DNA from: Bacteroidetes bacterium GWF2_35_48
Lineage (GTDB): Bacteria; Bacteroidota; Bacteroidia; Bacteroidales; GWF2-35-48
Length of the DNA stretch: 64,000 nt
Reading direction: 5' to 3'
Assembly: GCA_001769125.1 (NCBI GenBank)
Contig: MEOG01000069.1
Location: forward strand, 62,001 to 126,000
Below, in pieces: positions 15,706 through 35,381 of the stretch. Positions within the stretch are counted from its first letter, which is position 1; every line of letters begins with the position of its first letter. The notes beneath the pieces were generated by a model. It had not been told where the DNA came from and did not search any database. It worked only from the letters and a program-made list of their open reading frames with translations. Made by a program: the position numbers and the translations under genes.

Positions 15706-16086
15706 ATGGAACCTTTACTGATTGAAAAAACAGATGATACTCCGGGTATTCACTTTGATCCGGCACAAAATATATTCCAAATAGCAGGAAAATCAATGCC
15801 CGAGAATCCTGTTAAATTTTATTCCAAAGTTTTTGAATGGCTGAATACATTTTCGTCTGAAGTTGATTCGGGAACATCTATTTTATTAAATGTACGTTTT
15901 GATTATTTTAACACGGCATCTTCTAAACTATTTCTTGACCTGTTAGATCTTTTTGCAGAGCTTGTAGAAGCTGGTGCTACAGTGAAAGTATTATGGAATT
16001 ATCGTAAGGGAGACGATGACATGAAAGATGCAGGGGAAGAATATGCGGAAATGGTTGAAATACCTTTTGAGTATAAAGAAAATTAA
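15706..16086 (+). CDS. SiaC-family regulatory phosphoprotein (DUF1987)
   Basis: 126 residues, the usual length. In Pseudomonas, SiaC is phosphorylated by the kinase SiaB, dephosphorylated by the PP2C-type phosphatase SiaA, and in its unphosphorylated state activates a diguanylate cyclase. The conserved block VRFDYFNTASSKLFLDLLD contains the expected phospho-threonine (Thr70). The N-terminus MEPLLIEKTDDTPGIHFDP and the C-terminal VKVLWNYRKGDDDMKDAGEEY also fit the family. It has its own promoter (15651-15678) and is 5 bases from the next gene. No SiaB or cyclase is adjacent, but a HAMP/SpoIIE phosphatase of SiaA architecture is at 33387-35381. Confidence 0.88.
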   Translation: MEPLLIEKTDDTPGIHFDPAQNIFQIAGKSMPENPVKFYSKVFEWLNTFSSEVDSGTSILLNVRFDYFNTASSKLFLDLLDLFAELVEAGATVKVLWNYRKGDDDMKDAGEEYAEMVEIPFEYKEN

Positions 16087-20096: not shown

Positions 20097-23000
20097 CTAC
20101 CTTCCAATAATAAACTTCTTAATAATATGCTTATTTTCTTCAACATTCAGTTTTACATGATAAAAACCCGGAGAATAATTTGCAACATTTAAAGTGTAAA
20201 CTTCGGAAAAAGCAGACATTGTCTTTTCTTCTATTAATTGTCCGAGAATATTATAAACCTGAATAGTATAGGGAGCGTCTGTTATTCTGTTAAAATACAA
20301 ATTCATATTTGTAGAAGCAGGATTTGGCGCAATAATAAAATCAATGTTGTTATTATAAGCTTCTATGGGTGCAATAAATGTCCCCTGTGAAGTATCGGTT
20401 GTTGAAACCTGGTATACTTCTTTTGTAAGATTATCCTGTACGTAAACAACCACAATTACATTACTGTCTATAGCAGAATAAAAATTTGCCAAACTGCTTG
20501 AATACTGCAATGTGCGTACATCTCCGGTACTCCAGTTTTCGGAAATATTTGTACCCGCTGCATCAGGGAGCATTTTTCTTACAGTGTTTAAAAATTTAGT
20601 TTCTCCGTTTGTCCCAACCCCTGTACGATCCATAAATTTCTCTACGACTACAACATGAACTGTCAGATCTTTATCTGTAATATTTTCTAAAGCTGTTATT
20701 TCAGTCAGCACATTGATTGAACTTCCCGTAAAGCCTAAATCAATATCAACAGTAAATTTAGGGTCTGTAAGCCTTCTGTGACGCAATTTTGTTAAAAAAA
20801 CATCATAAGGGTATAAGGTCAATGGAGAAATATACGATCTTAAATAATTACCATCCATTATTGTATATGGTACAACAGAAACACCATACATAAAAGATTG
20901 CGCCCCCGAACCTTGCGGATAGTCAAGATTCAATTGGTCTGCAACAGGGTATTCTGTGTGATATTGAATATCTACAATGTCTTTTTGATTTTGATTAACC
21001 CAGTCATTAAATTTTACATTTCCAGTTGCGCTTGAGACGTCATTTGCATTTGTAAAATGCTCAAACAGTACCATTCTTGGTCTTTCTCCAATCCATATAT
21101 CGTCAAAGGCAAAACCATTATATATATTGCTGTTATTAGAGGCAAATGCTATTCTTAAGCGAACACTTGGTTCCCCTGCAAGAATGTCGAGATCATGTCT
21201 TGCGTCTGTCCATTGATTATATATCGAATCAGACCATCCGAAATTTCCCCCACCGGGATAGCTGTAATTAACAACATTATCATACCAGCTGATTCCTTCC
21301 TGAATTTCATTGACATCTTTTAATGTATACCATGTTGAATCATTGTCAAGTGAATATTGGAGTGCTGCTCCATCATAATATTTTTCTGTAGCGCAAAAGA
21401 TTCTCATTTTTATCATAGGACGTTTTAGATCAGAAAAATTAAAGCAGGGACTGATAACATAAGATTGTTCTTCGTTTTGGTAGGCTGAATCAAGTTTGTA
21501 AGAAGTATACCATGCACTTGTCCCGGAATAGGGTGGAGGTAAATTACTACTCAACGCCTGACCATAACACCAACTGTCTTTATTATTTGAAGAACCGGAT
21601 GACCATGCGCCGGAACTGACGTCAAAATTTTCAAAATATGGATATTGTACTATTTCAGGTCTTATTAAAGCTGTTTGTGTTATTGAATCAATACACGAAT
21701 TCTTTGTGGTTATTACAAGTGTAATATCATACGCTCCCGTTTGTGAATATTCATGTGTGGGGTTTTGTAATGTACTGCTTTGATTATCGCCAAAAGTCCA
21801 ATAATAAGAATCAATTGTATCACCAAATGAATTATTAATAAAAGCAACAAATCCTCCAAAACATTCGTTTTTCCAGGTAAATTGAGCGGTAGGAATCGAA
21901 TCAAAATATACTACAGAATTTTTTGAATTCACACAGCCAAATTTTGAGGTCAGCGTTAATTCTATTGATTTATTACCGCCAGAAGTATATATATGTTGTG
22001 CTATACTGTCATTAGGAATAATAGTTTCATCTCCCATGTCCCATTGCCAGATTGAAACGGAATCAATAGTACTGATACCCTCAAATACAATCGGATTTGA
22101 AATACATTTATCCGAGGTTATTGTAAAATCAACATCAGGAAGTTTGTGAATAACAACCGTATCATTAACCGTTGTTATACACTGGCTGTTTGATGCGTTA
22201 AATACGAGTTGTACAGGAACATCTATATAACTTTGCGATGGCGTATTATTTAAAGTGTCAATAAAGGAAGAGGGTTGTAGATTATTTGTCTGAAAATTCA
22301 TTATTTTCCAAAAGGATGTTCCGGATAAATACGGGGACATGGAATAACTTAAAAGCGATGAAGGACTGTTAATACAAAGCGAATGTTCCGGGTTAATTCC
22401 TTCTATGGTAATATCCGGTAAGCCGTAAATTTTTATAGGAGAAAACGTATTTACTGTACATCCGTTTGTATCTGTATATACAAGAAAAATTGTATCATTA
22501 TATTGTCTTGTTGCACTGTCTAATAAATTTTCTATAGCTGGCGTTGATGGATTAATGATGCCTGCACCATCCCCGGTTGAAAATATTCCAACACCTGAAA
22601 ACAGACCTCCGTTATATGGTATCGCATTATATGAGTAAATTCCGATAAGCGTATCAATAGGCGAATTTGTGCAATACTTCTGCTCATTTCCCTGAATACT
22701 TAATGTAGGTATCTGATGAACAAAAAGAGTGTCTTCCCAATTATTAACACAACCGGTTATTGGATTATGATATTGATAAGTAATAATATTATCTCCGATA
22801 TTAATAGCAGAAGGATTAACAATTACGGTATCATTATTATAAGCAATAGTATTTATTTTTATATAATCAGTGATAACGTTGGGGTTGTTTCCATGCAGTT
22901 CAAAAGGGCTTGCATTTCTGCATATTTCATCAAGCGAGACAAAACTGTCTGTTGGCAGAGGATGAACAATAATAGGAAAGCTAACCATTTTTTTACAATT

Positions 23001-26000
23001 ACTGGGGGCTGTGTATTCATAAAAAACAGTGTCTTGACCTATACCAACTGTATTAATATTAAAAGTTGCATTAAATGTATTTTCAGTGTTAAAACCCAAA
23101 CCACTCCAAATTCCGGAGCCATTAGGCGGAAATTGATTAATGGCATTTGCCGTTATGCTTGCATTTGAATAACAATACGCAGTGTCCAATCCTATTAAAT
23201 CTGGTACTCCAACGGAGTCAACTTTTACGTTCATCAATATTTCCAATATTGCGGCATTGTAAATATATTTAAATGTTATAGTATGCGTTCCGGGACCTGC
23301 AAGTGTAGGATTAAATACGCCATGTTTATTCCCTAAATCCTGAACATAAGCAGTATTCACAAACCATCCGGTATCATTAACATTTGGTGATGGAATGCCC
23401 CAAATATGAATATTTGTATCCCCAAAACAATAAAAGACAGTATCTGTAATTCCTGTTATCTGTCCTAATACATTTATTACGTGAACCGTGTCTGTAAAAG
23501 AAATAATACATCCGGTAGGATGGGTATAAGTATATGTTATTGGCCAATTACCTACTCCTGCTATATTTGGACGAAATGTATTATTATACTGCATAACCCC
23601 TGCTCCGGAAAATATACCCCCGGCAGGATTACCAATAAGTTGAACGCTGGTTGTGTCATCTGAACTAAATGTGTAAGTTGTTAAAGGGGTTATTGATACT
23701 ACCGAATCAACTGGAGGAACTATGGTAAAAGTATTTGTAGTAAAACATCCTTTTGAATCTGTAACAGAAACAGAATATGCTCCAGAAGGCAAACTGTCTG
23801 CGCTTTGTGTTGTTTGATAGAAAGAATCATCCCATATATATTGATATGGACTCATTCCATTTATTTCTGTAATAGTTAAGATTGCGTCAGTATCATAACT
23901 GCATTTTAAAGCCTGTGCTAATGCTATTGTGATATTAAATTGCGGAGGATTAACTATAGAGCCACTGATAATTATTGTGCAGCCATTGTTATCAGTAACG
24001 GTACAAAAATATACTCCAAATGATAAGTTGAAACATGTCGCTGTTGTTTGTGAATCTGCATCGCTCCATAAATAATTATAAGTAGGCGTTCCCCCATTAA
24101 CAACTATTGATGCTGTTCCATCTGAAGAATCATGACAACTTATTTCTGTTGTTGTTATGTATGCTGTCAAAGCAGTAGGTTCGTTAATGGTATACGCTGC
24201 ATTCAAAGTAATTACACAACCTATATTATTTGCATCTCTTATGCGAACATCGTACGTGGATGCGGATAGTAAAGTGTAGCTCCCCGTGCCTTCCCAGCTT
24301 GTTCCTCCATTTATCGTATACTCATAAGCACCACTGCCACCACTTGGTGAACTGATGCTTATACTTCCATCGGATGTACCGTTACAGCTTGCATTGGTCT
24401 TGTTTAAAATGGCTGATAATTCTACAGGTTCTGATATAAAAAGCGCGCTGTTTAATTGAATGGAACAACTTGTTGCATTGGCATCACGAATATAAATATC
24501 GTAAGTTCCTGTTGTTAGTGTGTTGAACACGTCTGATGCCTGCCAGCCTGCGCCGCCGTTGATGCTGTACTCATAGTTTCCACTTCCGCCTGTGGGGATG
24601 GTTAAACTTATCGCTCCATTGTTGTTTCCATAGCATACGCTTACATCTGTGGTATTTATCGTTGCGTTTAGGATATTGGGCTGCGTAAGTTGCAACGCAT
24701 TGTTCAACGTTAGCGTGCAGCTTGTATTTACGGCATCTCTGAATACTACATTGTAATATCCGGCTGATAAATTGCTGAATGTTCCTGTTCCCTGCCAGCT
24801 TGTACCGCCGTTATTACTGTATTCATAACTACCACTGCCGCCTGTGGGAACGGTTATGTTTATCTCTCCTTCCGGTGTGTTGTAGCAAATAAGATTTGTA
24901 CTGCTCAATGTTGCATTCAGTGCTGTTGGCTGTGTCAGCGTCAGTGCGCCGTTTAAAGTTACCACGCATGTAGGCGCATTGGCATCACGCATTTTTACAT
25001 TATACGTACCTGCAACTAAGCCTGTAAATAAATTCCCACTTTGCCATATAGTGCCTCCATTTATTGTGTATTCATAAAAGCTGCTTCCTCCTGTCGAACC
25101 TGTGATTTCTATTGATGCGTTTGCATTACCGTTACAGGCTGTTACATTTATCGGATTTACTGCTGCAGTTAATAAGTCCGGCTGTGTAATGGTATACGCT
25201 GCATTCAAAGTAATTACACAACCTATATTATTTGCATCTCTTATGCGAACATCGTACGTGGATGCGGATAGTAAAGTGTAGCTCCCCGTGCCTTCCCAGC
25301 TTGTTCCTCCATTTATCGTATACTCATAAGCACCACTGCCACCACTTGGTGAACTGATGCTTATACTTCCATCGGATGTACCGTTACAGCTTGCATTGGT
25401 CTTGTTTAAAATGGCACTCAACAAGCTTGGTTCATCTAATGTTTTTGCTAAAGTAAAATCGCATCCATTAACATCTGTTATAGTAACAGTATAAATATCT
25501 GCAACAAGATTTGAAGCAACCGATGTATTTTGGCTAAGACCATCATCCCACAAATAAGAATACGGAGCTGTTCCCCAGCTCCCAGATGCAGTAAGAGTGC
25601 CATCAGATGCCCCGTTACAGGAAATGGAATTTGAAATAGAAATAAGCCCGTTAATTTTTCCTTGCCAATTCATTTCAAAACCAGTAAAATTATTTGATCC
25701 ATTAGAATGCCAAACAATATGCAGGGAAGATCCTGTAGAAGTAATAATTGCAGGAGGAGGAATCGTGTTACAATAAGTTCCGATAATGGGAGACAAAGCA
25801 TCCGGGCCGTCATAAATAATTAAATAATCGAGATTACATGCAACGTCTGCTTCAACATCAAAAGAAATAAATTCAAGAACTACTTTTTGGGCGTTAGCAG
25901 GGCTTATTGTTACAGAATAATCTTCATTATCTAAATAATTACCTGCATTGTCGTCTGAATCAGTTAATGTGCCGGTACAACCAGTCAGCGTACCACCATC

Positions 26001-26078
26001 AACTGTGCTGATTTTTGTCTGTGAAAATCCAGCGTTCAGAAATAAAAAAAATAATATGGAAAATAAATAACTTCTCAT
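20097..26078 (-). CDS. giant T9SS-secreted surface protein with CUB domain and SprB-type repeats
   Basis: 1993 residues. The signal peptide is residues 1-19 (SILFFLFLNAGFS-Q). A CUB domain follows (about 25-145; FNTF-like core with YLIIYDGPDALSP). Residues about 150-720 are a run of SprB-type repeats, each beginning with a CNG-x-SDG-x-I/T block. Ig-like/PKD domains cover about 740-1480 (YYWTFGDNQSSTLQNPTHEY), and an anchor/MAM-like domain and an Omp28-like thioredoxin-fold part follow. The C-terminus is a type A sorting domain (IAPNPASTNMNLYF ... IIKKFIIGR). The protein is thus expected to be exported and attached to the surface, as a gliding or adhesion protein. It is last in the TIR/STAND operon, 41 bases after the lipoprotein gene. 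It contains a 229-base perfect internal duplication. Confidence 0.92.
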   Translation of the reverse strand: MRSYLFSILFFLFLNAGFSQTKISTVDGGTLTGCTGTLTDSDDNAGNYLDNEDYSVTISPANAQKVVLEFISFDVEADVACNLDYLIIYDGPDALSPIIGTYCNTIPPPAIITSTGSSLHIVWHSNGSNNFTGFEMNWQGKINGLISISNSISCNGASDGTLTASGSWGTAPYSYLWDDGLSQNTSVASNLVADIYTVTITDVNGCDFTLAKTLDEPSLLSAILNKTNASCNGTSDGSISISSPSGGSGAYEYTINGGTSWEGTGSYTLLSASTYDVRIRDANNIGCVITLNAAYTITQPDLLTAAVNPINVTACNGNANASIEITGSTGGSSFYEYTINGGTIWQSGNLFTGLVAGTYNVKMRDANAPTCVVTLNGALTLTQPTALNATLSSTNLICYNTPEGEINITVPTGGSGSYEYSNNGGTSWQGTGTFSNLSAGYYNVVFRDAVNTSCTLTLNNALQLTQPNILNATINTTDVSVCYGNNNGAISLTIPTGGSGNYEYSINGGAGWQASDVFNTLTTGTYDIYIRDANATSCSIQLNSALFISEPVELSAILNKTNASCNGTSDGSISISSPSGGSGAYEYTINGGTSWEGTGSYTLLSASTYDVRIRDANNIGCVITLNAAYTINEPTALTAYITTTEISCHDSSDGTASIVVNGGTPTYNYLWSDADSQTTATCFNLSFGVYFCTVTDNNGCTIIISGSIVNPPQFNITIALAQALKCSYDTDAILTITEINGMSPYQYIWDDSFYQTTQSADSLPSGAYSVSVTDSKGCFTTNTFTIVPPVDSVVSITPLTTYTFSSDDTTSVQLIGNPAGGIFSGAGVMQYNNTFRPNIAGVGNWPITYTYTHPTGCIISFTDTVHVINVLGQITGITDTVFYCFGDTNIHIWGIPSPNVNDTGWFVNTAYVQDLGNKHGVFNPTLAGPGTHTITFKYIYNAAILEILMNVKVDSVGVPDLIGLDTAYCYSNASITANAINQFPPNGSGIWSGLGFNTENTFNATFNINTVGIGQDTVFYEYTAPSNCKKMVSFPIIVHPLPTDSFVSLDEICRNASPFELHGNNPNVITDYIKINTIAYNNDTVIVNPSAINIGDNIITYQYHNPITGCVNNWEDTLFVHQIPTLSIQGNEQKYCTNSPIDTLIGIYSYNAIPYNGGLFSGVGIFSTGDGAGIINPSTPAIENLLDSATRQYNDTIFLVYTDTNGCTVNTFSPIKIYGLPDITIEGINPEHSLCINSPSSLLSYSMSPYLSGTSFWKIMNFQTNNLQPSSFIDTLNNTPSQSYIDVPVQLVFNASNSQCITTVNDTVVIHKLPDVDFTITSDKCISNPIVFEGISTIDSVSIWQWDMGDETIIPNDSIAQHIYTSGGNKSIELTLTSKFGCVNSKNSVVYFDSIPTAQFTWKNECFGGFVAFINNSFGDTIDSYYWTFGDNQSSTLQNPTHEYSQTGAYDITLVITTKNSCIDSITQTALIRPEIVQYPYFENFDVSSGAWSSGSSNNKDSWCYGQALSSNLPPPYSGTSAWYTSYKLDSAYQNEEQSYVISPCFNFSDLKRPMIKMRIFCATEKYYDGAALQYSLDNDSTWYTLKDVNEIQEGISWYDNVVNYSYPGGGNFGWSDSIYNQWTDARHDLDILAGEPSVRLRIAFASNNSNIYNGFAFDDIWIGERPRMVLFEHFTNANDVSSATGNVKFNDWVNQNQKDIVDIQYHTEYPVADQLNLDYPQGSGAQSFMYGVSVVPYTIMDGNYLRSYISPLTLYPYDVFLTKLRHRRLTDPKFTVDIDLGFTGSSINVLTEITALENITDKDLTVHVVVVEKFMDRTGVGTNGETKFLNTVRKMLPDAAGTNISENWSTGDVRTLQYSSSLANFYSAIDSNVIVVVYVQDNLTKEVYQVSTTDTSQGTFIAPIEAYNNNIDFIIAPNPASTNMNLYFNRITDAPYTIQVYNILGQLIEEKTMSAFSEVYTLNVANYSPGFYHVKLNVEENKHIIKKFIIGR
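24185..24413. repeat. 229-base perfect direct repeat, copy 1
   Basis: Identical base for base to 25187-25415, inside the SprB-repeat region of the giant adhesin gene. The offset is 1002 bases (334 codons), so the frame is kept. Other SprB repeats of the gene are clearly diverged. Confidence 0.95.
25187..25415. repeat. 229-base perfect direct repeat, copy 2
   Basis: Second copy of 24185-24413. Both encode the same segment, beginning near LNKTNASCNGTSDGSISISS and ending in LNAAYTI. Confidence 0.95.
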
Positions 26079-26119
26079 TTTAGTCGTCTAAAGTGTTATG
26101 AAAAAAATAAAAATATGAA

Positions 26120-27352
26120 TTATTTTTGTCCTCCGTTTTTATTCGTTTTTATCAAAGTCATCATTTTATATGCATTTTGACCGGCAATTATGCAGCCATC
26201 ATCATTAGTCTGAAATACACAATAAGCCATTTCATCAAGTTGTTTTTCCCCAAAATAGCTGGTAAAAATAGTTGAACCGTCTGAATTTAATTTTAAAAGA
26301 AAAATATCTTTATTTGTGTTTTTACCAGTTGTTCCTGTTACAAAATATGTATTATCTTTAGTGGGAAAAACAGCTTTGCTTTCAGTGAACGAAGCTTTTT
26401 CTGTTTTTATTTCCCATTCTGTATTACGAATACTACTGGGTTTAAGTTTCACAATATAAGCTTCAGATGTTCCGGCTTCAGCACCCAATGTACCGCAGAA
26501 AATATATCCTCCATCACCTGTTTGCTGAATTGTTTCTCCGAAATCGTTTTCTGAACCTCCGTAAGTTTTCATATCATTCTGAAATCCTAAATTATTCGTT
26601 TCAACTATAATAATATTTGATTTTTCTTTTCCTGTTTCAGTAAATGATTCTGTTGTCCCGATTATAACATACCCTCCATCTGACTTAGCTAAAATAAAAT
26701 TACCAATATCATCTTCTGGGCCTCCGCGTGAATTTTTCCATATTACATTTCCTTCAGAATTAATTTTCAGAATTAAAATATCCTTTTTCCCTTGTACGTT
26801 AAGATTTGCTGTATTTGCAGAGGTCGTTAAGCCTGTTATAATATAACAATTATCCGTTGTTGCTTTAATGCAATTACCCTCTTCATTATTCGTTGTTCCG
26901 ATTATTTTTGGGGATGACCAGATCAATATGCCGGAAGCATCTGTTTTAATAACATAAACATCTGTATGAACGAATGCTCCGTTTTTTGATGTGCTATATC
27001 CTGTGATAACAATAGTACCATCTGTATTAATAACAAAACTTTTGCCTTCATCATTCAAACTATCGCCATAAAGCCGACTCCATTCTTCATTTCCAAATTT
27101 ATCGGTTTTAATAAGAGTTACATCTAATCCTTTCCCGGGAACAGAAACAGATCCGAGCAACAAATAACCTCCGTCTGATGTTTGTTTAACATCATAAGCA
27201 TTGTTTATACCGGAAGAGCCAAAAAATTTAGTAAAAAAAACAGATTGAGAATCTCCGGGTTGGCTTTTTTTACACGAAAAAAAGAACAGAATAACAAGAG
27301 TTATAATGCCCAAATGAGAATACAATAATATTTTTTCGCGAGTCAATTTCAT
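26120..27352 (-). CDS. secreted lipoprotein with seven DGGY beta-propeller-like repeats
   Basis: 410 residues. The N-terminal signal peptide ends in the lipobox FFSC (Cys27). The mature protein has seven repeats with the pattern T-x-DGG-Y-x-I-x-G: DVKQTSDGGYLLLGS, FVINTDGTIVITG, IKATTDNCYIITG, ILAKSDGGYVIIG, IQQTGDGGYIFCG, VFPTKDNTYFVTG and VFQTNDDGCIIAG. Seven repeats fit a closed seven-bladed propeller. It is probably anchored in the outer membrane. Its start overlaps the upstream barrel gene by 4 bases (ATGA), and the giant adhesin follows after 41 bases. Its partner is unknown; a binding or scaffold role between barrel and adhesin is inference. Confidence 0.8.
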   Translation of the reverse strand: MKLTREKILLYSHLGIITLVILFFFSCKKSQPGDSQSVFFTKFFGSSGINNAYDVKQTSDGGYLLLGSVSVPGKGLDVTLIKTDKFGNEEWSRLYGDSLNDEGKSFVINTDGTIVITGYSTSKNGAFVHTDVYVIKTDASGILIWSSPKIIGTTNNEEGNCIKATTDNCYIITGLTTSANTANLNVQGKKDILILKINSEGNVIWKNSRGGPEDDIGNFILAKSDGGYVIIGTTESFTETGKEKSNIIIVETNNLGFQNDMKTYGGSENDFGETIQQTGDGGYIFCGTLGAEAGTSEAYIVKLKPSSIRNTEWEIKTEKASFTESKAVFPTKDNTYFVTGTTGKNTNKDIFLLKLNSDGSTIFTSYFGEKQLDEMAYCVFQTNDDGCIIAGQNAYKMMTLIKTNKNGGQK

Positions 27353-28392
27353 TTAACTTTCATGGGGTTGTAATTAACAAACGTATAACCGACAGAAATG
27401 GAAAAAATATTCATTCTGAAGTCGTCATCAATATAATAATATTTATAAACCAATTCATTGTTTGAATATCTGTTTTTTATTCGAACCTGATTAAATAATC
27501 CCAAATTATATCTAAAATCAATAAATAAATATCCCTTTTTGATTTTATATTTTAGCCCTGCTCCTGTTACAAGCCATAGGTTGAAGGGATTTCGACCATC
27601 AGTCATATTTATCTCAGACCCCTTTACATCAACGGCAGAATTATCTGTGAAATTTCTAATCAATCTGGCATTTGACATAAAAAGGAAAGCAGGATTTAAT
27701 CCGCCCCGTAAATAAGGTTTTATTTTTTTATATGGATATTCATACGTAACACTAACAGGAGCACTTAATCTTATATTTGTTTCGGAACACTCAACCTTAA
27801 CAAAATTGAAAAAATATCGCTCATTGTATAATTTATTTTGTTCTATCTGCATATCAAAATTCAAGTCAAAATTTCTGTATATAAAGCGACTATATTTCAC
27901 TCCAAACTGAAACCCTGTTCCATATAAATTTTTAATAACTGCATTATTAAGGTTATGAACTCCAAAATGTTCTATTGTTTTTGCGATTGAAAAATTTGTA
28001 CCGATATAAACACCATAAGCAGAAACCGGCGCTGCAAAATAAGTATCAAAAATTGATAAAAACTCAGGTTCTTCAACAGATCTGACCACTTCATACTCGG
28101 GTTCTGTTTCAAGAATTTTTATGATATATTTTTCCGCATTTTTTTTATTATCCTGATATAAAGAAACAAGCGTTAAAAGCCGGTATGCCTGAAGTTTTTC
28201 TTTTTTATCATATCCTCTTTCAATGCAGGGTTCAATCAATTTAAATACAGAATCAATTGCTCCCTCTTCAAAATATTGACCTGCTTTTTTTAAAAGTACA
28301 GAACAATCTTCCTGAGCTTTTGTCTGCTGAGTAAAAAGTGTTATCAGAAAAATAAAACTTATAACAAATATTTTAGGTATTTTTATTTTCAT
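27349..28392 (-). CDS. TPR-like plus outer-membrane beta-barrel protein
   Basis: 347 residues. The signal peptide is about residues 1-26 (IFVISFIFLITLFTQQTKA-Q). Residues about 28-95 are helical and TPR-like (CSVLLKKAGQYFEEGAIDSV, RLLTLVSLYQDNKKNAEKYI). The rest is alternating aromatic strands with a barrel-like end (FRMNIFSISVGYTFVNY), so it is probably an outer-membrane barrel of the PorT/OmpW-like size. It is 26 bases after the STAND gene and overlaps the lipoprotein gene by 4 bases. The periplasmic helical part could contact the periplasmic part of the STAND protein; that is inference. Confidence 0.75.
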   Translation of the reverse strand: MKIKIPKIFVISFIFLITLFTQQTKAQEDCSVLLKKAGQYFEEGAIDSVFKLIEPCIERGYDKKEKLQAYRLLTLVSLYQDNKKNAEKYIIKILETEPEYEVVRSVEEPEFLSIFDTYFAAPVSAYGVYIGTNFSIAKTIEHFGVHNLNNAVIKNLYGTGFQFGVKYSRFIYRNFDLNFDMQIEQNKLYNERYFFNFVKVECSETNIRLSAPVSVTYEYPYKKIKPYLRGGLNPAFLFMSNARLIRNFTDNSAVDVKGSEINMTDGRNPFNLWLVTGAGLKYKIKKGYLFIDFRYNLGLFNQVRIKNRYSNNELVYKYYYIDDDFRMNIFSISVGYTFVNYNPMKVK

Positions 28393-28418
28393 TGTCAGGG
28401 AAATAATGCCCCTTTTTA

Positions 28419-31400
28419 TTAATTTTTTTTCTTTGAATCTGAAATAGATAATAATTTACCGTCCTTAACCACAACACAAAAAGTTTCATTGAATCCATAA
28501 TTATGAATTCTGCGTTGCGAACCCAGTGCTTCTTCACGTGTTTTCCAGTTACCAATTAAAAACCTGTAATGATCGCCATCCTGAATAACTTCAACATTTT
28601 CAAGTCCATTAAAATTTTTGGGTTCCGGAGCAATATATTTTTTAGAAGAAGCAAATTGTATTTTGTAAATTTTATCTGAATTTTTAAAATTATTTGATAA
28701 TCGCTGCTGCGCTAGTAAATTTTCAGGAGTAACCCCCTTTCCAAGCGGCTTATCGGAAATCGTTCTTTCGTAAGCAATATCTTTTCCAACATAAGCTCTC
28801 CACTCTTCAATAGACATATTTCTTGCAATAGCATCCGCTACCTGTTCTGCAATTAAATTGGTGTTAACTGGCCAGCGAGCTATTTTGTTATTCCTATGAC
28901 CACTTATTATTGAATTATTATCTGTACTGAAAGCAATAGACCAAATCCATGATTTTTCATCATCTTTTATTACGAAAGGCTGATAATTAAAATTATCAGT
29001 AAGCCATATTCGTATAGTTCCATCAAAGCCTGATGATGCAAAATATGCATTGTCTGGACTAAATTTTATATCATTAACTTTTGTGGCATGTCCGCCAAGA
29101 TTTATTATTAATGTTCTAAAGCTGATATTCCAAATTTGAATTGATCCTTTATTGTCAACAGAGGCAAGCATGGAGCCATCAGGGCTTACCGAAACAGCGT
29201 TAAATGAAGCATCTGAATGAGAAGAAAAAATTACAGAGTCTTTAGAAATACGATTCCATAAAATTAACTTACCATCATTAGTACCCCCAATTATTCTTTT
29301 GCCATCAGGAGTAAACGCAAGGCTTTTCACAAGGGCATTTCTTTTTATAAAAACCTGCATGGAAGAAGACTCAATATCCCAAAATAATATAGAATTATCA
29401 GCGCTTGAAGAAGCAAGGGTATTGCAGTCAGGTGAAAAAGCAAGAGAACTGATTGTTCCGGTGTGACCTTTAAAAATTTTCGCCGGATTGCCGATGTTGC
29501 CAAAAAGATCAAAAACCTGAATAAGACTATCTGTTCCACAAGCCAACCACCTGCCATTAATACTTATAGCGAGACAGGTATTAAATCCTTTATTTTTATA
29601 TAATGTTAAATATTTCAATGAGTCATTTCCATCCCATTGCAAAATTTTTCCATCATTTCCGGCACTATAAAAAATATTATTTATTGGATTAAAAACTATA
29701 GAACGAACAGAGGCAGTATGACCATTATGATAATTGAATCCTTTTCCCTTGAATGCTTTTAACGCATTTAGTAATCCACTAAAAATATCTGTATTAAATT
29801 TCTGTCCTTTGTACTTATTGTTAAATAAAAATGCCTGATAAGCAACAAGGGCTTTTTCATTTTTATCGCGTTCTATTTGCAGGGACTTAACAGCCATAGA
29901 CTGGGCTATTGAAAGAAATCGCAATTCCTGCGCCCTGCTTTCAGCTCGCCTTGCAGCAACAGAGTTCGATTCGGCTTTTAATTTTTCTGTAAGAGCCACA
30001 TTAGCACTTGAGTCGGCAAGCAATTTTTGAATGAGTGCCTCATTAGCTGATTCTTCCGCTTTCGCACGTTGCAGTTCTGCATTTATTTTTTCCTGTTTTG
30101 CTAAACTTTCCTGAATATTTGCTTCAATAGATTTTTGAGAGGCCATTAATTTATCTGCAAGGGCTTTCTCTGTTTGATAGTTAGCAAACTTTGTTTGCCT
30201 TTCAGCTTCTTTTTTTTGTTCTATCGCGAGCAAACGTTGTTTGTCGGCTTCGCTTTTCATAATTTGAGAATAGAGCATAAAGCCTAATGAAAGAACTGCT
30301 GCCGCGCCAAGAACCAGTGCTGTAACCCGGGAGCGCCTCAATGCTCTTCGTTGCAATCTTTTTTTATTTAACTCTTCAGCTTCATAATCTTTCTGACTTG
30401 CATCCATATATGCAATTGTTCTCTCATAGCCGGGTGCGTATCTTTGAGCCCATTCAAGTGTAGGTTGCTGTTTCATTTTCCAATTAATCGCAAGCTGGAG
30501 ATCAGGTGGCCTCCAAAGACCCGTTTTCCCTGCCTGATACAAAGCAGCAGACTCAGAAAGTCTTAAATAAATCTGCACAGAAGCAGATTCATCCTCTACC
30601 CATATTTTTAGCTTGTCCCAAATTCTCATAAGGCTCTCATGAGACAAATCTATGATTGTATCGCTTGTAAGTTTAACTTTAGAAGCAGGGGAGAGAAAAG
30701 ATCTTCCCGTAACCCTGAATTTGTCAACTACTTCAATAATTTCCTGCTCTGTTGAAAGAGAAATCAAAGCCAGATCTTTAATACAGGTTGGACGTCTTAT
30801 TCCCCTGTTGTCGCTTCCTTTTTCTGATAGTGTTTTAAAAATTTTCGCACAAATTTCTTTACCCCTTGGTGTTAATTCATTGTATGCCTCATTCGCATGT
30901 TCAGACAAGGCTTTTTCAATTCCACCGATAGCATGATAATGACTAATACTTATAGGTTCATTCTGTAACCGATGTTTTATCCAGTAATCCCATGTTCTCA
31001 TCAGCGCATGCTGGAGGATGGGTAACTGGTCAGGGTTATCTCCGATATCATTCAGTAACTGATTTACCAAGTGCGAAGAGATGGTTCCTCCTGCAACAGC
31101 AATAGGACCGGTAATCGCTTCTGTTAAATCTTCACGGGTCATTTGTGGAATCAGATAATGGCTTTTATTAATCAAAGATGACAATTCCTGATAGTGCGCG
31201 CACTCTCCAATAAAATCGGAGCGCATGGTGATTGCAATATAAATAGGAATGTCTTCCTGATTGATTGCTTCAACTAAAAGTTTTAAGTAAAAATAGGTTT
31301 CATTTATAGTATCTGAGATAAGGCTTTCTTTTCTGAACCGGAACAATTCTTCAAACTGGTCAATATAAATTAAAATATTTTTATTGATTTTATAAAGTTG

Positions 31401-31838
31401 TTTGATAGCATCAACAAGCCCTAATGAACTGCTTCGGAGAATACTTTCGGTTAAAGCTAAATTAAAATAATCGTCTTCATCCGGCGTGTCGCTTTCCGCA
31501 TCTTTTGATAATGATTCTGCCATATTTTGTATGGGCTTGCTTCCCGGTCTGGAGATGATAACATGCCATGAAGACCCATATTTTGTAACAAAACCCCCAT
31601 GCAATATTGGCATCAAACCACAAAAAACCAGTGAAGATTTTCCACCTCCGGAAGCACCAAGAATTGCGATAAATTTATTATTGGCAAGATTGTATAAAAC
31701 TTCATCGCTTTGCCCGTCTCTTCCAAAAAACAAATGACTTTCTTCAATTCCAAAAGGGCGCAAGCCCGGATAAGGATTGAATAATTGTCCAAAAGGAATT
31801 TCGTTATTAAAATCAATATGATTTATATTATTTGTCAT
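28419..31838 (-). CDS. transmembrane STAND NTPase with WD40 repeats and a SPOR-like domain
   Basis: 1139 residues. It opens with the nSTAND1 motif PYPGLRPFGIEESHLFFGRD (about 22-41), a Walker A GASGGGKSS (61-69), Walker B ILIYIDQFEELF (155-166) and the sensor block ITMRSDFIGEC. A winged-helix/arm region runs to about 480. One membrane segment (ALVLGAAAVLSLGFMLYSQI, about 507-526) is followed by a long charged coiled coil (about 530-660), WD40-type repeats (about 705-990) and a C-terminal SPOR-like domain (about 1057-1126; KIQFASSK ... YRFLIGNWKTREEAL). The likely layout is an ATPase in the cytoplasm and WD40-SPOR in the periplasm, with SPOR on peptidoglycan. It overlaps the TIR gene by 4 bases. 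Confidence 0.88.
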   Translation of the reverse strand: MTNNINHIDFNNEIPFGQLFNPYPGLRPFGIEESHLFFGRDGQSDEVLYNLANNKFIAILGASGGGKSSLVFCGLMPILHGGFVTKYGSSWHVIISRPGSKPIQNMAESLSKDAESDTPDEDDYFNLALTESILRSSSLGLVDAIKQLYKINKNILIYIDQFEELFRFRKESLISDTINETYFYLKLLVEAINQEDIPIYIAITMRSDFIGECAHYQELSSLINKSHYLIPQMTREDLTEAITGPIAVAGGTISSHLVNQLLNDIGDNPDQLPILQHALMRTWDYWIKHRLQNEPISISHYHAIGGIEKALSEHANEAYNELTPRGKEICAKIFKTLSEKGSDNRGIRRPTCIKDLALISLSTEQEIIEVVDKFRVTGRSFLSPASKVKLTSDTIIDLSHESLMRIWDKLKIWVEDESASVQIYLRLSESAALYQAGKTGLWRPPDLQLAINWKMKQQPTLEWAQRYAPGYERTIAYMDASQKDYEAEELNKKRLQRRALRRSRVTALVLGAAAVLSLGFMLYSQIMKSEADKQRLLAIEQKKEAERQTKFANYQTEKALADKLMASQKSIEANIQESLAKQEKINAELQRAKAEESANEALIQKLLADSSANVALTEKLKAESNSVAARRAESRAQELRFLSIAQSMAVKSLQIERDKNEKALVAYQAFLFNNKYKGQKFNTDIFSGLLNALKAFKGKGFNYHNGHTASVRSIVFNPINNIFYSAGNDGKILQWDGNDSLKYLTLYKNKGFNTCLAISINGRWLACGTDSLIQVFDLFGNIGNPAKIFKGHTGTISSLAFSPDCNTLASSSADNSILFWDIESSSMQVFIKRNALVKSLAFTPDGKRIIGGTNDGKLILWNRISKDSVIFSSHSDASFNAVSVSPDGSMLASVDNKGSIQIWNISFRTLIINLGGHATKVNDIKFSPDNAYFASSGFDGTIRIWLTDNFNYQPFVIKDDEKSWIWSIAFSTDNNSIISGHRNNKIARWPVNTNLIAEQVADAIARNMSIEEWRAYVGKDIAYERTISDKPLGKGVTPENLLAQQRLSNNFKNSDKIYKIQFASSKKYIAPEPKNFNGLENVEVIQDGDHYRFLIGNWKTREEALGSQRRIHNYGFNETFCVVVKDGKLLSISDSKKKN

Positions 31839-33265
31839 GCAAATGCGATAGAAATTTTTTCAATAAAAACGGATAATAATTCAATCGAGAATTCATTTGT
31901 ACCATGAATAGGAATAATTCCTCTGTTGTAAAAATATTCATCCGGAACAGAATGAGGAGAATCAAGGTACACAGCTTTAGTAATAAAAGGCTTAGCCCTA
32001 CCAAAACCAGGAGCTTTCACAATATCATTAATTTTACTTTTCAACCAGAATTCATCACTGCTGTCAAAATATATAAGTACTGCATCACAGTCAACTAGAT
32101 TCTGTCTGTGTTTTTTTAATAAATTTTTTTCTTCTGTGAGCTTTGGAGAATGAATTATTTCAAACCCCTGTGTAGAAAGAAAAATACTGATATCGCTAAT
32201 TTTATCAAAAGAAGGGCTTTCGTGAACCAGATAGATTCGAGTTCCTCTCTTCTGTAAACTTTCTGAAGCAGGCCCATGATGCACTGATTTAATTTCAGAC
32301 ATTATGATTGTTTTGAAATATTCAAGCGGGGTTTGTATTAAAGATGCTCCTCTCAGCGCTTCTGAATCTCTCTTTAACTGTTCAATAAAATGACGCTGCG
32401 TTTCATTCTGTATTTTAAGATCCGGCGACATCCATATTAAGCGGGAAAAAAGAAATGGATTGTCTTTCCTTCTTACTTTATAATTCTCATAATAATCTGC
32501 AGCAATTTTATTTTGAAAGTCAGGAGCAGAAATCTCACTGTTTTTTAATAATTCTCCATAAGTATTACCAAAAATATGAATAGACAAAAAAGATTGATCA
32601 AGATATTTAATAACAGAATCTTTAAGTTCATCTGTAGTATCAGGTAAAATATTTTCGGGACATACCCTGAATCCCATTCGCTTTAATTCTCTTTTGATGC
32701 TTTCCCTGCTATTTTCCTGATCAGGTGTAGTTTCTGCCAGATAAATAAAATAAGGAGACTTGACATGTTCTTCTTCAGAAGATAAGGCAAAGCGAAGATC
32801 AAAAACAAGATCCGTTAATTTTGTCCAGTAATGCCTTTCCATATCAACAATATTCTTTTCCATCAAAGAATGTTGATCTTCCGTTGTGGGTAATTTGAAA
32901 AAAAAATCATAACTAATATGAGATCTTAGCGTTTCGGGTTGTTTTGAAAGAGGTATTTCCTTTTTTAATATTTTAAAAAATTTTTTATTTGTTTGAACGA
33001 CTTCGTTTGTAATAATATCCAGCTCTTTCATGGATGCATTAGATTTTAAATAATTATCATTCAAAAAAACAATAAATGCATCTGATTTATTTATTACACG
33101 AAGTAGTTCATCTTCTGAATTTATATCACCGCTTAAATGAAAGCGGATTTCATTTCCATAAATTTTATTAATAAGTGTCAGGATGAAAGAAAGAAGATTT
33201 TTTTCCCAACTATTCAAAGATTGCTCTTTGAAATGACTTATGAATATGGACGCCGAAAGATTCAT
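31835..33265 (-). CDS. protein with three TIR-like domains
   Basis: 476 residues, no signal peptide or membrane segment, so probably cytoplasmic. Residues 1-125 are a clear TIR-like domain (ASIFISHFKEQ; SDAFIVFLNDNYL; SMKELDII with a glutamate at the expected catalytic place). Residues about 170-310 look like a second one (SPYFIYLAETTPDQENSRESIKREL; SIHIFGNTYGE). Residues about 343-476 look like a third (GTRIYLVHESPSFDKISDISIFL; CDAVLIYFDSSDEFW). TIR domains signal by self-assembly or by cleaving NAD. It is first of the operon and overlaps the STAND gene by 4 bases (ATGA). The TIR-like calls for domains 2 and 3 rest on strand and turn patterns and are weaker. Confidence 0.75.
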   Translation of the reverse strand: MNLSASIFISHFKEQSLNSWEKNLLSFILTLINKIYGNEIRFHLSGDINSEDELLRVINKSDAFIVFLNDNYLKSNASMKELDIITNEVVQTNKKFFKILKKEIPLSKQPETLRSHISYDFFFKLPTTEDQHSLMEKNIVDMERHYWTKLTDLVFDLRFALSSEEEHVKSPYFIYLAETTPDQENSRESIKRELKRMGFRVCPENILPDTTDELKDSVIKYLDQSFLSIHIFGNTYGELLKNSEISAPDFQNKIAADYYENYKVRRKDNPFLFSRLIWMSPDLKIQNETQRHFIEQLKRDSEALRGASLIQTPLEYFKTIIMSEIKSVHHGPASESLQKRGTRIYLVHESPSFDKISDISIFLSTQGFEIIHSPKLTEEKNLLKKHRQNLVDCDAVLIYFDSSDEFWLKSKINDIVKAPGFGRAKPFITKAVYLDSPHSVPDEYFYNRGIIPIHGTNEFSIELLSVFIEKISIAFA

Positions 33266-33386: not shown

Positions 33387-35381
33387 TTAAAAACGAATTC
33401 CGATAACAAGAATATCATCGGTCTGCTCGTGTCCGTTTTTCCAGTTTTCAATCGTGTTATCCAAAAGTATTTTTTGTTCACTCATAGGAAGGTGGGCATT
33501 TTCAATAAGCATTTTTTTGAAATTGCAAGACAAGAATTTCCATTTTTCAGATCCGCCGAATTGATCAGAATATCCGTCTGAAAACAAATACAGCAAATCT
33601 CCTTCATTAATTTGGAACTCATGATTCTTAAAAGGATTCATTCCCCTCCTGCTGATACCAATTGGCATTTTATCTGCCTTTATTTCATGTAGCATCGGGC
33701 CATGGGGCGATGGTATCATGCCCACGGGCGATGCTACATGATATAATGGATTATTTGCTCCTGCATATTGAATTATTTTTTTATCCGTATCAATAATACA
33801 AAGAGCAACATCCATTCCATCTTTGCTGCCTCCAATTTCATCCGTCTGACGTAGAGCTGTTACAATATTCTCGCGGAGTTTGAATAAAATTTCATTTGCA
33901 GAAATATTTTTATATTTATTAACTATTTCATTCAGAAAAGCAAATCCAAGCATACTCATAAACGCACCGGGAACCCCATGTCCCGTACAATCAACAGCGG
34001 CAATGTACACCTTATCGTCTAACTGCACAACCCAATAGAAATCGCCACTGACAATTTCTTTAGGTTTATATAGAATAAAAATTTCTTTCAGATATTTATT
34101 GACATTCTCTTCCAGAGGTAGAATGGCATCCTGAATTCGTTTTGCATAAATAATGCTGTCTGTAATTCTCTTTTTCTGCTCTTCTATCTGATCTTTTTGC
34201 TTAACAACTTCTGCAGTACGTTCTCGGACTTTTTCTTCCAAAACATTATAATATCCTTCAATTGTCGCAAGCATTTCATTGAATTTCTCAGACAAAGTAG
34301 TTATTTCATTTTTCCCTTCCACTTCAGCCCTTTCCTCAAAATTTCCGGCAGTAATACGCAAAACATTATTGACAAGTTTTTTAATTGGTTTTGTTATTGT
34401 GCGTGTTTTGTTATAAATCATTAAAATTACAACAAAAAGTGTGATGCCAAAAATGAGCAATGTTTTTATGAGTTCAATTTGTAAAATTCTAATGTCTTCT
34501 GTTTTATCTGTTACAATAGAAATAACGGAACTTTTATACAACAGTGTATTTTTTCGTTCCATGTAAATGAATTCATAATGAAGATGTCTTTCCTTTTCGA
34601 TAACATCCAAAGCTGTCCTTTTTTTCAGTTCAAAAGCGTCAAACAAATATTTTTTCCTAAGATCATTCTTTTTTAGGGGATATCCACTAATAAATGAAAA
34701 AGGTTCGTCTGCGCCAATAAATAAATCAACATACGAAATACTTGAGTCTTTTTTTGTGATGTGGGAAAATCTATCTTTTACGAGCTTTTGCACTCTGTCT
34801 GCTCTTATGGAATAATGACCGGTTTCAATGATATAACGTCCGTCAGGAGTAGGTTGATATGTATATTTTTTTATACGCTTTGTAGACATCTCAATAGAAA
34901 ATCGCTCACTCACAAATTTTTTTGATGAAAGCATGTCCAACAAAAAGTTTTTAAATCCTTCGCCAAAATCAAAAACACATTTATTCAAATCCTTATCAAA
35001 CGTTGTGTTAACAATAACGCCTGTTTTAGAGTCAATAACATAAATATCCTCCATTTCAGGATGCATCCCCAAGTTTAATTGCACATCCCTTAAATCAATT
35101 GTTTCAATTTTATTTTGCTCTTTTTTGTATATCTCAATCAAGCTATTGCTTATTTCTTCTACTCTTTTGTCAAGAAACTCCTCAATTATATTTAATGAAG
35201 CATCCTGAAAATTCATTATGTTTTGTATTTCATCTGATATAATTTGATTTTTCTTCTCACTTGCTTCCTGTAAAATAGAACGCGTATTTTGATAATTTAA
35301 AACTCCCAGAATAAGCAATGCTGTAACAACCGGAATGATTACATTCAAGATAAGTTGCTTAAAAATGGTGGTTTTCTTCAT
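33387..35381 (-). CDS. membrane sensor with HAMP, coiled coil and SpoIIE-type PP2C phosphatase
   Basis: 664 residues, a SiaA/RsbU-like serine/threonine phosphatase acting on a partner protein. Two membrane segments (about 9-28 and 300-322) bound a periplasmic sensor region. A HAMP domain follows (about 325-375), then a coiled coil, then the phosphatase from about 410 with metal-binding blocks SGDFYW, AAVDCTGHGVPGAFMSMLG, FSDGYSDQFGG and a final TDDILVIGIRF. It is 120 bases upstream of the TIR gene on the same strand and could be read with that operon or alone. Its architecture matches SiaA, and a SiaC-like protein is at 15706-16086. An in-frame insert (about 17 residues) is described at 33685-33741. 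Confidence 0.9.
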   Translation of the reverse strand: MKKTTIFKQLILNVIIPVVTALLILGVLNYQNTRSILQEASEKKNQIISDEIQNIMNFQDASLNIIEEFLDKRVEEISNSLIEIYKKEQNKIETIDLRDVQLNLGMHPEMEDIYVIDSKTGVIVNTTFDKDLNKCVFDFGEGFKNFLLDMLSSKKFVSERFSIEMSTKRIKKYTYQPTPDGRYIIETGHYSIRADRVQKLVKDRFSHITKKDSSISYVDLFIGADEPFSFISGYPLKKNDLRKKYLFDAFELKKRTALDVIEKERHLHYEFIYMERKNTLLYKSSVISIVTDKTEDIRILQIELIKTLLIFGITLFVVILMIYNKTRTITKPIKKLVNNVLRITAGNFEERAEVEGKNEITTLSEKFNEMLATIEGYYNVLEEKVRERTAEVVKQKDQIEEQKKRITDSIIYAKRIQDAILPLEENVNKYLKEIFILYKPKEIVSGDFYWVVQLDDKVYIAAVDCTGHGVPGAFMSMLGFAFLNEIVNKYKNISANEILFKLRENIVTALRQTDEIGGSKDGMDVALCIIDTDKKIIQYAGANNPLYHVASPVGMIPSPHGPMLHEIKADKMPIGISRRGMNPFKNHEFQINEGDLLYLFSDGYSDQFGGSEKWKFLSCNFKKMLIENAHLPMSEQKILLDNTIENWKNGHEQTDDILVIGIRF
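33685..33741. repeat. palindromic insert inside the phosphatase reading frame
   Basis: TCATGTAGCATCG (33685-33697) and CGATGCTACATGA (33729-33741) are perfect 13-base arms around 31 bases. It encodes the segment HVASPVGMIPSPHGPMLHE, placed between NNPLY and IKADKMPIGI. Other SpoIIE phosphatases usually have only a few residues at that point, so this is probably an inserted repeat that kept the frame. Confidence 0.6.

Follow-up and report, generated by a model that had tools for sequence, protein, structure and literature searches.

In this study, we analyzed a stretch of 64,000 nucleotides from Bacteroidetes bacterium GWF2_35_48 (contig MEOG01000069.1, positions 62,001 to 126,000; the whole stretch is called the window below). 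On its minus strand lies an operon that runs from a triple TIR-like protein through a STAND ATPase, an outer-membrane TPR-barrel protein and a lipoprotein to an adhesin exported by the type IX secretion system (T9SS). An earlier note on this DNA had described these five genes as one unit. The five open reading frames (ORFs), their coordinates and strand, and the 4-base overlaps and 26- and 41-base gaps between them (-4, +26, -4 and +41 bp, from the TIR-like gene to the adhesin gene) were all as described there, and its domain calls were upheld: a triple TIR-like protein, a STAND protein with one membrane segment and WD40 repeats, a TPR-barrel, a seven-repeat lipoprotein and a 1993-residue T9SS adhesin. 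The genes do form a unit, but two of its members had been overlooked. The operon is larger than five genes: a SpoIIE phosphatase, whose gene lies 121 bp upstream of the TIR-like gene in the window, and a transporter fused to HEAT repeats and a cyclic nucleotide (cNMP)-binding-like domain also belong to it. The features are as follows.

33387-35381, minus strand: membrane HAMP-SpoIIE (PP2C-type) phosphatase, SiaA-like; the operon's first gene, metal-site motifs intact
31835-33265, minus strand: triple TIR-like protein; TIR domain at residues 3-164, DUF4062/nucleoside-deoxyribosyltransferase-like domain at 172-326, TIR/receiver-like domain at 340-476
28419-31838, minus strand: STAND protein; nSTAND1 at residues 22-437 (predicted cytoplasmic), coil, WD40 propeller at about 700-1010 (predicted periplasmic), SPOR-like tail at about 1060-1139
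30270-30326, minus strand: the STAND protein's only membrane segment (residues 505-523), with a strongly positive N-terminal side
27349-28392, minus strand: outer-membrane TPR-barrel protein; signal peptide, predicted periplasmic TPR domain at about residues 30-115, 8-stranded OmpA/OmpW-like barrel at 118-345
26120-27352, minus strand: seven-repeat lipoprotein, delta-60-like, probably a propeller; repeats about 54 residues apart, lipobox-like Cys
20097-26078, minus strand: T9SS-exported adhesin, 1993 amino acids
16866-20024, plus strand: fusion protein of a 12-transmembrane NTT/MFS-like transporter, HEAT repeats and a cNMP-binding-like domain; gene convergent with that of the adhesin
15706-16086, plus strand: SiaC-family phosphoprotein, a tentative phosphatase partner by proximity

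First, gene linkage was analyzed in named genomes that were scanned with the STAND alignment, which yielded at least 80 loci. Selection by STAND similarity favours true orthologues, and the ratios given here have as denominators those of the listed loci with enough DNA on the relevant side. All loci listed were from Bacteroidota, save one from Nostocales. The core order (TIR-like, STAND with membrane segment and WD40, TPR-barrel, lipoprotein, adhesin) recurred in Bacteroidales and Cytophagales; the genes were thus not unlinked in relatives, and the five-gene order suggested by the earlier note was found in other Bacteroidota. The barrel gene was the next gene after STAND in 70 of 75 loci, the lipoprotein followed the barrel in 59 of 61, and a large co-directional secreted protein followed the lipoprotein in 53 of 55. 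A transporter gene lay no more than three genes upstream in 52 of 60 loci, and the gene just upstream of STAND encoded the TIR-like protein (49/75) or directly the transporter (17/75). The order in other families of Bacteroidales was transporter-HEAT-cNMP, HAMP-SpoIIE, TIR-like, STAND, barrel, lipoprotein and adhesin. A HAMP-SpoIIE phosphatase usually preceded the cluster in Bacteroidales, including the window, and was located upstream of the TIR-like gene in L020, L021, L024, L026, L034, L035, L043, L046 and L109. In a FastTree phylogeny of the STAND proteins, most Cytophagales stood apart from Bacteroidales and the architecture types formed clades. Three loci (L090, L104 and L112) had a transporter-STAND pair followed by a protein of about 506 amino acids and no TPR-barrel, which is a reduced form.

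Second, the STAND protein was analyzed for domains and topology. The nSTAND1 family (PF20703) matched at 309.5 bits versus a cut-off of 27.1, the Walker A (GASGGGKSS), Walker B (IYIDQFEELF) and RSD motifs were intact in the window copy, and the core nSTAND1 residues were unvarying across seven orthologues. Seven WD40 stretches were recognized by Pfam (149 bits), and the protein has one hydrophobic segment, the N-terminal side of which was more positive in 82 of 83 STAND relatives (mean net charge +4.8 versus +0.1); the sole exception to this positive-inside pattern was a different WD40 protein. Because the ATPase is N-terminal and the charge bias surrounds a single segment, the WD40 propeller is predicted to be periplasmic, in agreement with the earlier note; the charges did not point to a cytoplasmic WD40 part.

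The C-terminal tail gave a different picture. Its similarity to SPOR (17-19 bits) is a sub-threshold match, the Pfam cut-off being 21, and it resembles the C-terminus of an Amidase_3 cell-wall amidase encoded in the same genome. The tail occurred only in this genus and was absent from STAND proteins outside it, and a sequence search of solved structures with it gave no useful match. SPOR as a conserved link to peptidoglycan was therefore rejected as a general feature, although such a link is possible within the genus, and the passage of a signal through peptidoglycan that had been suggested before was not supported. When solved structures were searched with the STAND profile, the best 60 matches listed were WD40 proteins, for example APAF1, which was uninformative on the ATPase part. 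Many distant nSTAND-WD40 proteins were also carried on plasmids (Streptomyces, Nostoc), with Persicobacter and Runella as the Bacteroidota examples inspected.

Third, the outer-membrane component was found in two forms. The AlphaFold model of the barrel protein (predicted local distance difference test score 94) has a TPR-like helical N-terminal domain followed by an 8-stranded barrel; the fold matched OmpA/OmpW (Z about 16) and TPR proteins (Z 9.8), and Pfam assigned OMP_b-brl. No relatives of the barrel were found in phage records. In a sister type of the cluster, a gene for a TonB-dependent receptor takes the place of the barrel gene, and this receptor bears the same TPR domain at its N-terminus (E-values 1e-18 to 1e-26). 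This type was present in the same genome as the window (contig C79), at L095, L096, L099, L101 and L102, and on a Runella plasmid (L139), and its members formed one clade on the STAND tree. It retained the STAND and transporter neighbours and had no adhesin, and a Reg_prop histidine kinase or sensor kinase adjoined the loci examined, with the exception of L095. Since the TPR domain was kept with STAND while the outer-membrane part was exchanged, we infer that this domain is the partner of the STAND protein, probably through the WD40 propeller, and the swap is the best indirect evidence for it. Partial rank correlations of distances, with the other parts removed, were computed over 35 related loci. 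TPR paired best with WD40 (0.37), versus 0.06 with its own barrel; the values were 0.51 for ATPase and transporter, 0.44 for ATPase and TIR-like protein, and 0.27 for barrel and lipoprotein.

Operons can persist without functional linkage, and some do, so that the genes could in principle be chance neighbours held together by inertia. This appears very improbable, as the order was kept at a mean pairwise STAND identity of about 50% across lineages, one domain was swapped in parallel, and copy numbers of the adhesin module matched in two-cluster genomes.

With regard to the surface components, all 65 lipoprotein orthologues had a Cys in the expected lipobox-like region, and Pfam found weak beta-propeller repeats, seven in number. 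The adhesin has a signal peptide, a CUB domain, 7 SprB repeats, PKD domains, a C-terminal module (residues 1481-1897; MAM/reelin-like and Omp28-like) and a T9SS type A sorting domain (1918-1991), for which PF18962 (46.1 bits) and TIGR04183 (37.3 bits) were both above cut-off. Complete downstream proteins at other loci had divergent N-terminal parts and shared about 490 residues at the C-terminus (E<1e-119), a stretch that was absent from the other ORFs of the loci, one excepted. We ran the 417-residue module, with the sorting domain left off, against nine cluster-bearing genomes. The number of full-length copies equalled that of clusters in seven of them (1, 1, 1, 1, 1, 2 and 2). The match lay beside the cluster in G000, G038, G108 and G205; in G001, G015 and G043 it was on another contig, and the cluster contig broke off ahead of the adhesin or within it. 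G034 and G057, whose cluster contigs end inside the adhesin, gave no full-length match. A separate gene of the window, outside the operon (38661-44090, plus strand), encodes a protein of 1809 residues in which 16 SprB repeats are combined with a CHU_C T9SS signal.

These data bear on the idea that barrel, lipoprotein and STAND form an export or assembly line, which would secrete, anchor or move a single T9SS cargo without signalling. SprF aids SprB in gliding in a comparable way, and both the tight pairing of lipoprotein and adhesin and the recurrence of the adhesin module with the cluster are consistent with this idea. On the other hand, a T9SS cargo is in itself ordinary here, because the genome has at least 150 matches to the sorting domain, and those proteins need no such set. 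A phosphatase, a histidine kinase and a transporter with regulatory domains are not export parts, and the sister type keeps STAND and TPR with the adhesin absent. We therefore consider a pure export function improbable.

The earlier note had also proposed a TIR effector and an attack or defence device, neither of which was supported. Structure modelling and alignment resolved three TIR-like or Rossmannoid domains in the TIR-like protein. The model of the first has a TIR fold similar to that of the SPARTA TIR (Z 14.0), Pfam TIR_2 being marginally below cut-off in the window protein; the second was recognized as PF13271 (DUF4062; 33.8 bits versus a cut-off of 24.7, residues 174-247) and its fold matched DNPH1 (Z 11.8); and the third matched TIR-STING (Z 12.9). 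A Foldseek search with the three-domain model had put unrelated multi-domain Rossmannoid enzymes on top, and VIA-align of the same hits gave the clear matches for each domain. A recent preprint (PMC13174449) showed that DUF4062 proteins are hydrolases of nicotinamide adenine dinucleotide (NAD) with an essential Glu. The aligned position, which is Glu in control DUF4062 proteins, is Gln251 in the window, and among 55 aligned proteins Gln was found in 47 and Glu in 6. The Glu of the first domain was retained in just 15 of 55, including the window (Glu81), and the corresponding position of the third domain was Lys in 50 of 55. One group of Cytophagales and some of the Bacteroidales kept the remaining genes and had no TIR-like gene. 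Because the catalytic residues are mostly lost and the gene is absent in several lineages, the TIR-like protein looks like an adaptor rather than an NADase effector, although in the window copy the first domain may still hydrolyse NAD. Its most conserved part was a WxxxKxxDxxKxxGxGR motif at residues 407-425, with W407, K411, K417 and G420 of the third domain among the most conserved residues, and this motif looks like an anion or nucleotide site.

Two further arrangements of this gene pair were observed. At the Nostocales locus (HT-58-2, L107, 8491-13942), a STAND-WD40 gene has as its neighbour a gene for the same triple TIR-like protein, in which the WCxxE site is canonical. Outer-membrane genes are absent there, and this is possibly the ancestral, still enzymatic form. 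Pairs of a DUF4062-like/TIR-like protein of about 296 amino acids and a STAND protein, found in the same genome as the window (L028, contig C103, with SpoIIE genes nearby) and in its sister genome (L030), are additional paralogous systems in the same genus.

A role in phage defence or abortive infection would follow the model of TIR-STAND or DUF4062 Swarozyc systems: the STAND protein would sense a phage component and the TIR-like protein would deplete NAD. Conflict systems do contain nSTAND1 and TIR/DUF4062 domains (PMC8195603, PMC13174449), Glu81 is present in the window copy, and relatives in Nostocales and Sediminibacterium retain the canonical WCxxE site. However, the catalytic positions described above, the loss of the TIR-like gene in lineages that keep the rest, the predicted periplasmic location of the sensor propeller and the linkage to outer-membrane and adhesin genes all argued against such a role. 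The PADLOC matches went no further than generic WD40/ATPase likeness: one, to a large HEAT/ARM model, was driven by WD40, and the other, to an ATPase, was weak. Housekeeping genes flank the cluster, and in place of toxins or nucleases it has a transporter and a phosphatase or kinase as partner genes. Defence, as a candidate unsupported by PADLOC, catalytic residues and flanks, appears to be of low probability. An Eco57I-like N6 DNA methylase is encoded about 14 kb from the operon end (4103-6499, plus strand), and no other defence genes were recognized among the scanned neighbours.

Candidate outputs were sought in the two added genes and their surroundings. The phosphatase matched PF07228 (66.8 bits) with the SGDFYW, DCTGHG, SDG and TDD metal-site motifs present, and matched the SiaA equivalog at 244 bits over residues 297-664, below the cut-off of 700. 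In the window, L078 and L092, SiaC-family genes lay close to the cluster. Partner-switch or kinase genes recurred in the form of HAMP-SpoIIE (window), Reg_prop-SpoIIE (L092), and an anti-sigma-factor antagonist with an ATP-binding protein (L139), which suggested outputs of the partner-switch or kinase type. On the Runella rosea plasmid (L139), the genes for STAS, the anti-sigma-factor antagonist and the ATP-binding protein precede STAND in a cluster of the TPR-TonB type. The window transporter reached the HEAT family threshold, its cNMP-binding domain scored 24.7 bits versus a cut-off of 27.5, and the TLC family was recognized in the orthologue at L045 (34.3 bits) and not in the window protein. 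It was closest to cluster-linked transporters of other Bacteroidales (38-41% identity), versus 28% for a paralogue in its own genome. Its gene lies directly upstream of the operon in relatives, at the opposite end and pointing towards the adhesin in the window, and on another contig in the sister genome of the genus. On plasmid pPP2 of Persicobacter psychrovividus (L138, 5798-11997), a relative of the transporter-HEAT-cNMP protein (E-value 1.7e-125) and a membrane STAND are encoded among the genes of an extracellular contractile injection system, which include those for sheath, baseplate V, DUF4255 and tape measure; the pair may have a regulatory role in it.

The computed results are the genes present and their conserved order, the folds of their domains, the topology prediction, the lost catalytic residues and the outer-membrane swap; from these we propose, with a probability of roughly 0.55, that the operon encodes a modular device for contact or ligand sensing across the envelope. 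The T9SS adhesin and the repeat lipoprotein would form its surface part and would act on the 8-stranded outer-membrane protein, whose TPR domain would hang in the periplasm and touch the WD40 propeller of the single-pass STAND ATPase. The state of contact or ligand would then cross the membrane segment and alter the nucleotide state and oligomerisation of nSTAND1, so that the STAND protein would serve as the inner-membrane relay, with the TIR-like protein as a putative cytoplasmic adaptor. Output would pass through the membrane SpoIIE phosphatase, or a kinase, with a partner-switch mechanism that might act on a SiaC-like protein, and the transporter-HEAT-cNMP protein may take part. The most likely physiological role would be the control of surface attachment, aggregation or gliding. 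Thus, of the surface sensor tied to an ATPase that the earlier note had suggested, the connection across the envelope was supported by linkage and predicted topology, whereas the TIR effector, the SPOR link and defence were not.

Several points weighed against this proposal. The physical contacts, the direction of the signal, the phosphatase target, the ligand and the physiological role all go beyond what was computed. Most Cytophagales loci had no phosphatase, so that its output role is not general, and the genome has 15 SiaC copies, which makes proximity of a SiaC gene weak as proof of a partner-switch target. In some genomes (G057) the transporter gene lay apart from the cluster, and G015 yielded no copy of it. 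Occurrence was patchy, with a full-length barrel in 4 of 296 genomes of the phylum; the TIR-like gene was found in 8 of 60 genomes of the order. The distance correlations agree with a pairing of WD40 and TPR and are not proof of contact, being exploratory and from one set of related loci, and the value of 0.37 between TIR-like protein and WD40 misfits a simple chain. Moreover, an identical anatomy would fit signalling in the reverse direction. STAND would then sense a cytoplasmic cue, for example by way of the phosphatase or the cNMP-binding transporter, and through WD40 and the TPR-barrel it would control how the adhesin is displayed, retained or moved at the surface. LapD/LapG governs adhesin retention in Pseudomonas and offers a parallel. 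An adhesin with its own module matched to the cluster and a putative nucleotide-binding domain among the cytoplasmic parts are also consistent with this direction. However, the sister type lacks the adhesin; its outer-membrane part is a TonB receptor, a kind of protein that usually imports or senses, and a gene for a Reg_prop histidine kinase follows downstream. This fits the outside-in direction better, and we regard inside-out control as rather unlikely. That a conserved envelope-spanning unit exists is much firmer than either its direction or its role.

In TonB-dependent transduction of the FecA-FecR-sigma type, a single-pass inner-membrane protein receives its signal from an outer-membrane protein that carries an additional domain in the periplasm. 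The layout here is the same, and the sister type even has a TonB receptor; however, a STAND ATPase with WD40 takes the place of FecR as relay, the periplasmic domain is TPR, and no sigma-factor or FecR-type gene was seen among the annotated genes of L139, at which no search for these was aimed. With the SiaABCD partner-switch system (PMC7647112), the unit has in common a phosphatase of the HAMP-SpoIIE kind, related to SiaA, and the presence of SiaC-family genes close to three loci, but the phosphatase is below the SiaA equivalog cut-off, no SiaD was seen and the number of SiaC copies leaves the pairing unsure. The order of transporter, HEAT and cNMP-binding-like domain is that of NTT-HEAT-cNBD fusion transporters (PMC5381601), a source that, in the part available, reports the fusion and no link to STAND or outer-membrane genes. 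An nSTAND1 ATPase with a WD40 propeller and a TIR-like gene partner is shared with conflict STAND NTPases (PMC8195603; PMC10907252), and the Nostocales locus L107 has the same triple TIR-like protein together with nSTAND1-WD40; in contrast, the propeller here is predicted to be periplasmic and the gene is tied to those for outer-membrane protein, lipoprotein, T9SS adhesin and phosphatase or kinase. A membrane/periplasm arrangement of this kind was absent from the available part of the nSTAND1 literature and of a survey of NTP-dependent conflict systems, with subscription literature mostly uncovered. The DUF4062 domain, above cut-off as PF13271, is common to Swarozyc TIR-like NADases (PMC13174449), but here the catalytic Glu is Gln, two further TIR-like domains are present and no portal-binding auxiliary domain was seen. 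PorE/PG1058 of T9SS (PMC5053529) also combines periplasmic propeller and TPR elements in T9SS bacteria, yet it is one outer-membrane lipoprotein with an OmpA-like domain and has no ATPase, TIR-like gene or adhesin operon.

The unit works like a trans-envelope transducer, yet it is not classed as FecA/FecR, SiaA or Swarozyc, and it appears to be a signalling line of an undescribed kind that crosses the envelope, rather than phage defence. It may represent a new class of trans-envelope signalling, at odds that we put a little short of even, in which an NLR-like inner-membrane STAND protein would read a TPR protein via WD40, with exchangeable surface parts (adhesin and lipoprotein, or TonB receptor) and outputs (SpoIIE, histidine kinase or the plasmid contractile injection cluster). 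STAND ATPases, the class of NLR and APAF1, have mainly been known as sensors in the cytoplasm that serve immunity or cell death. If the proposal is true, a STAND switch would also read the cell surface, via a periplasmic propeller tied to an outer-membrane protein and an adhesin, and the exchange of the outer-membrane part with TPR retained makes the contact between WD40 and TPR directly testable. Bacteroidota would then have a route of contact sensing separate from two-component and FecR systems.

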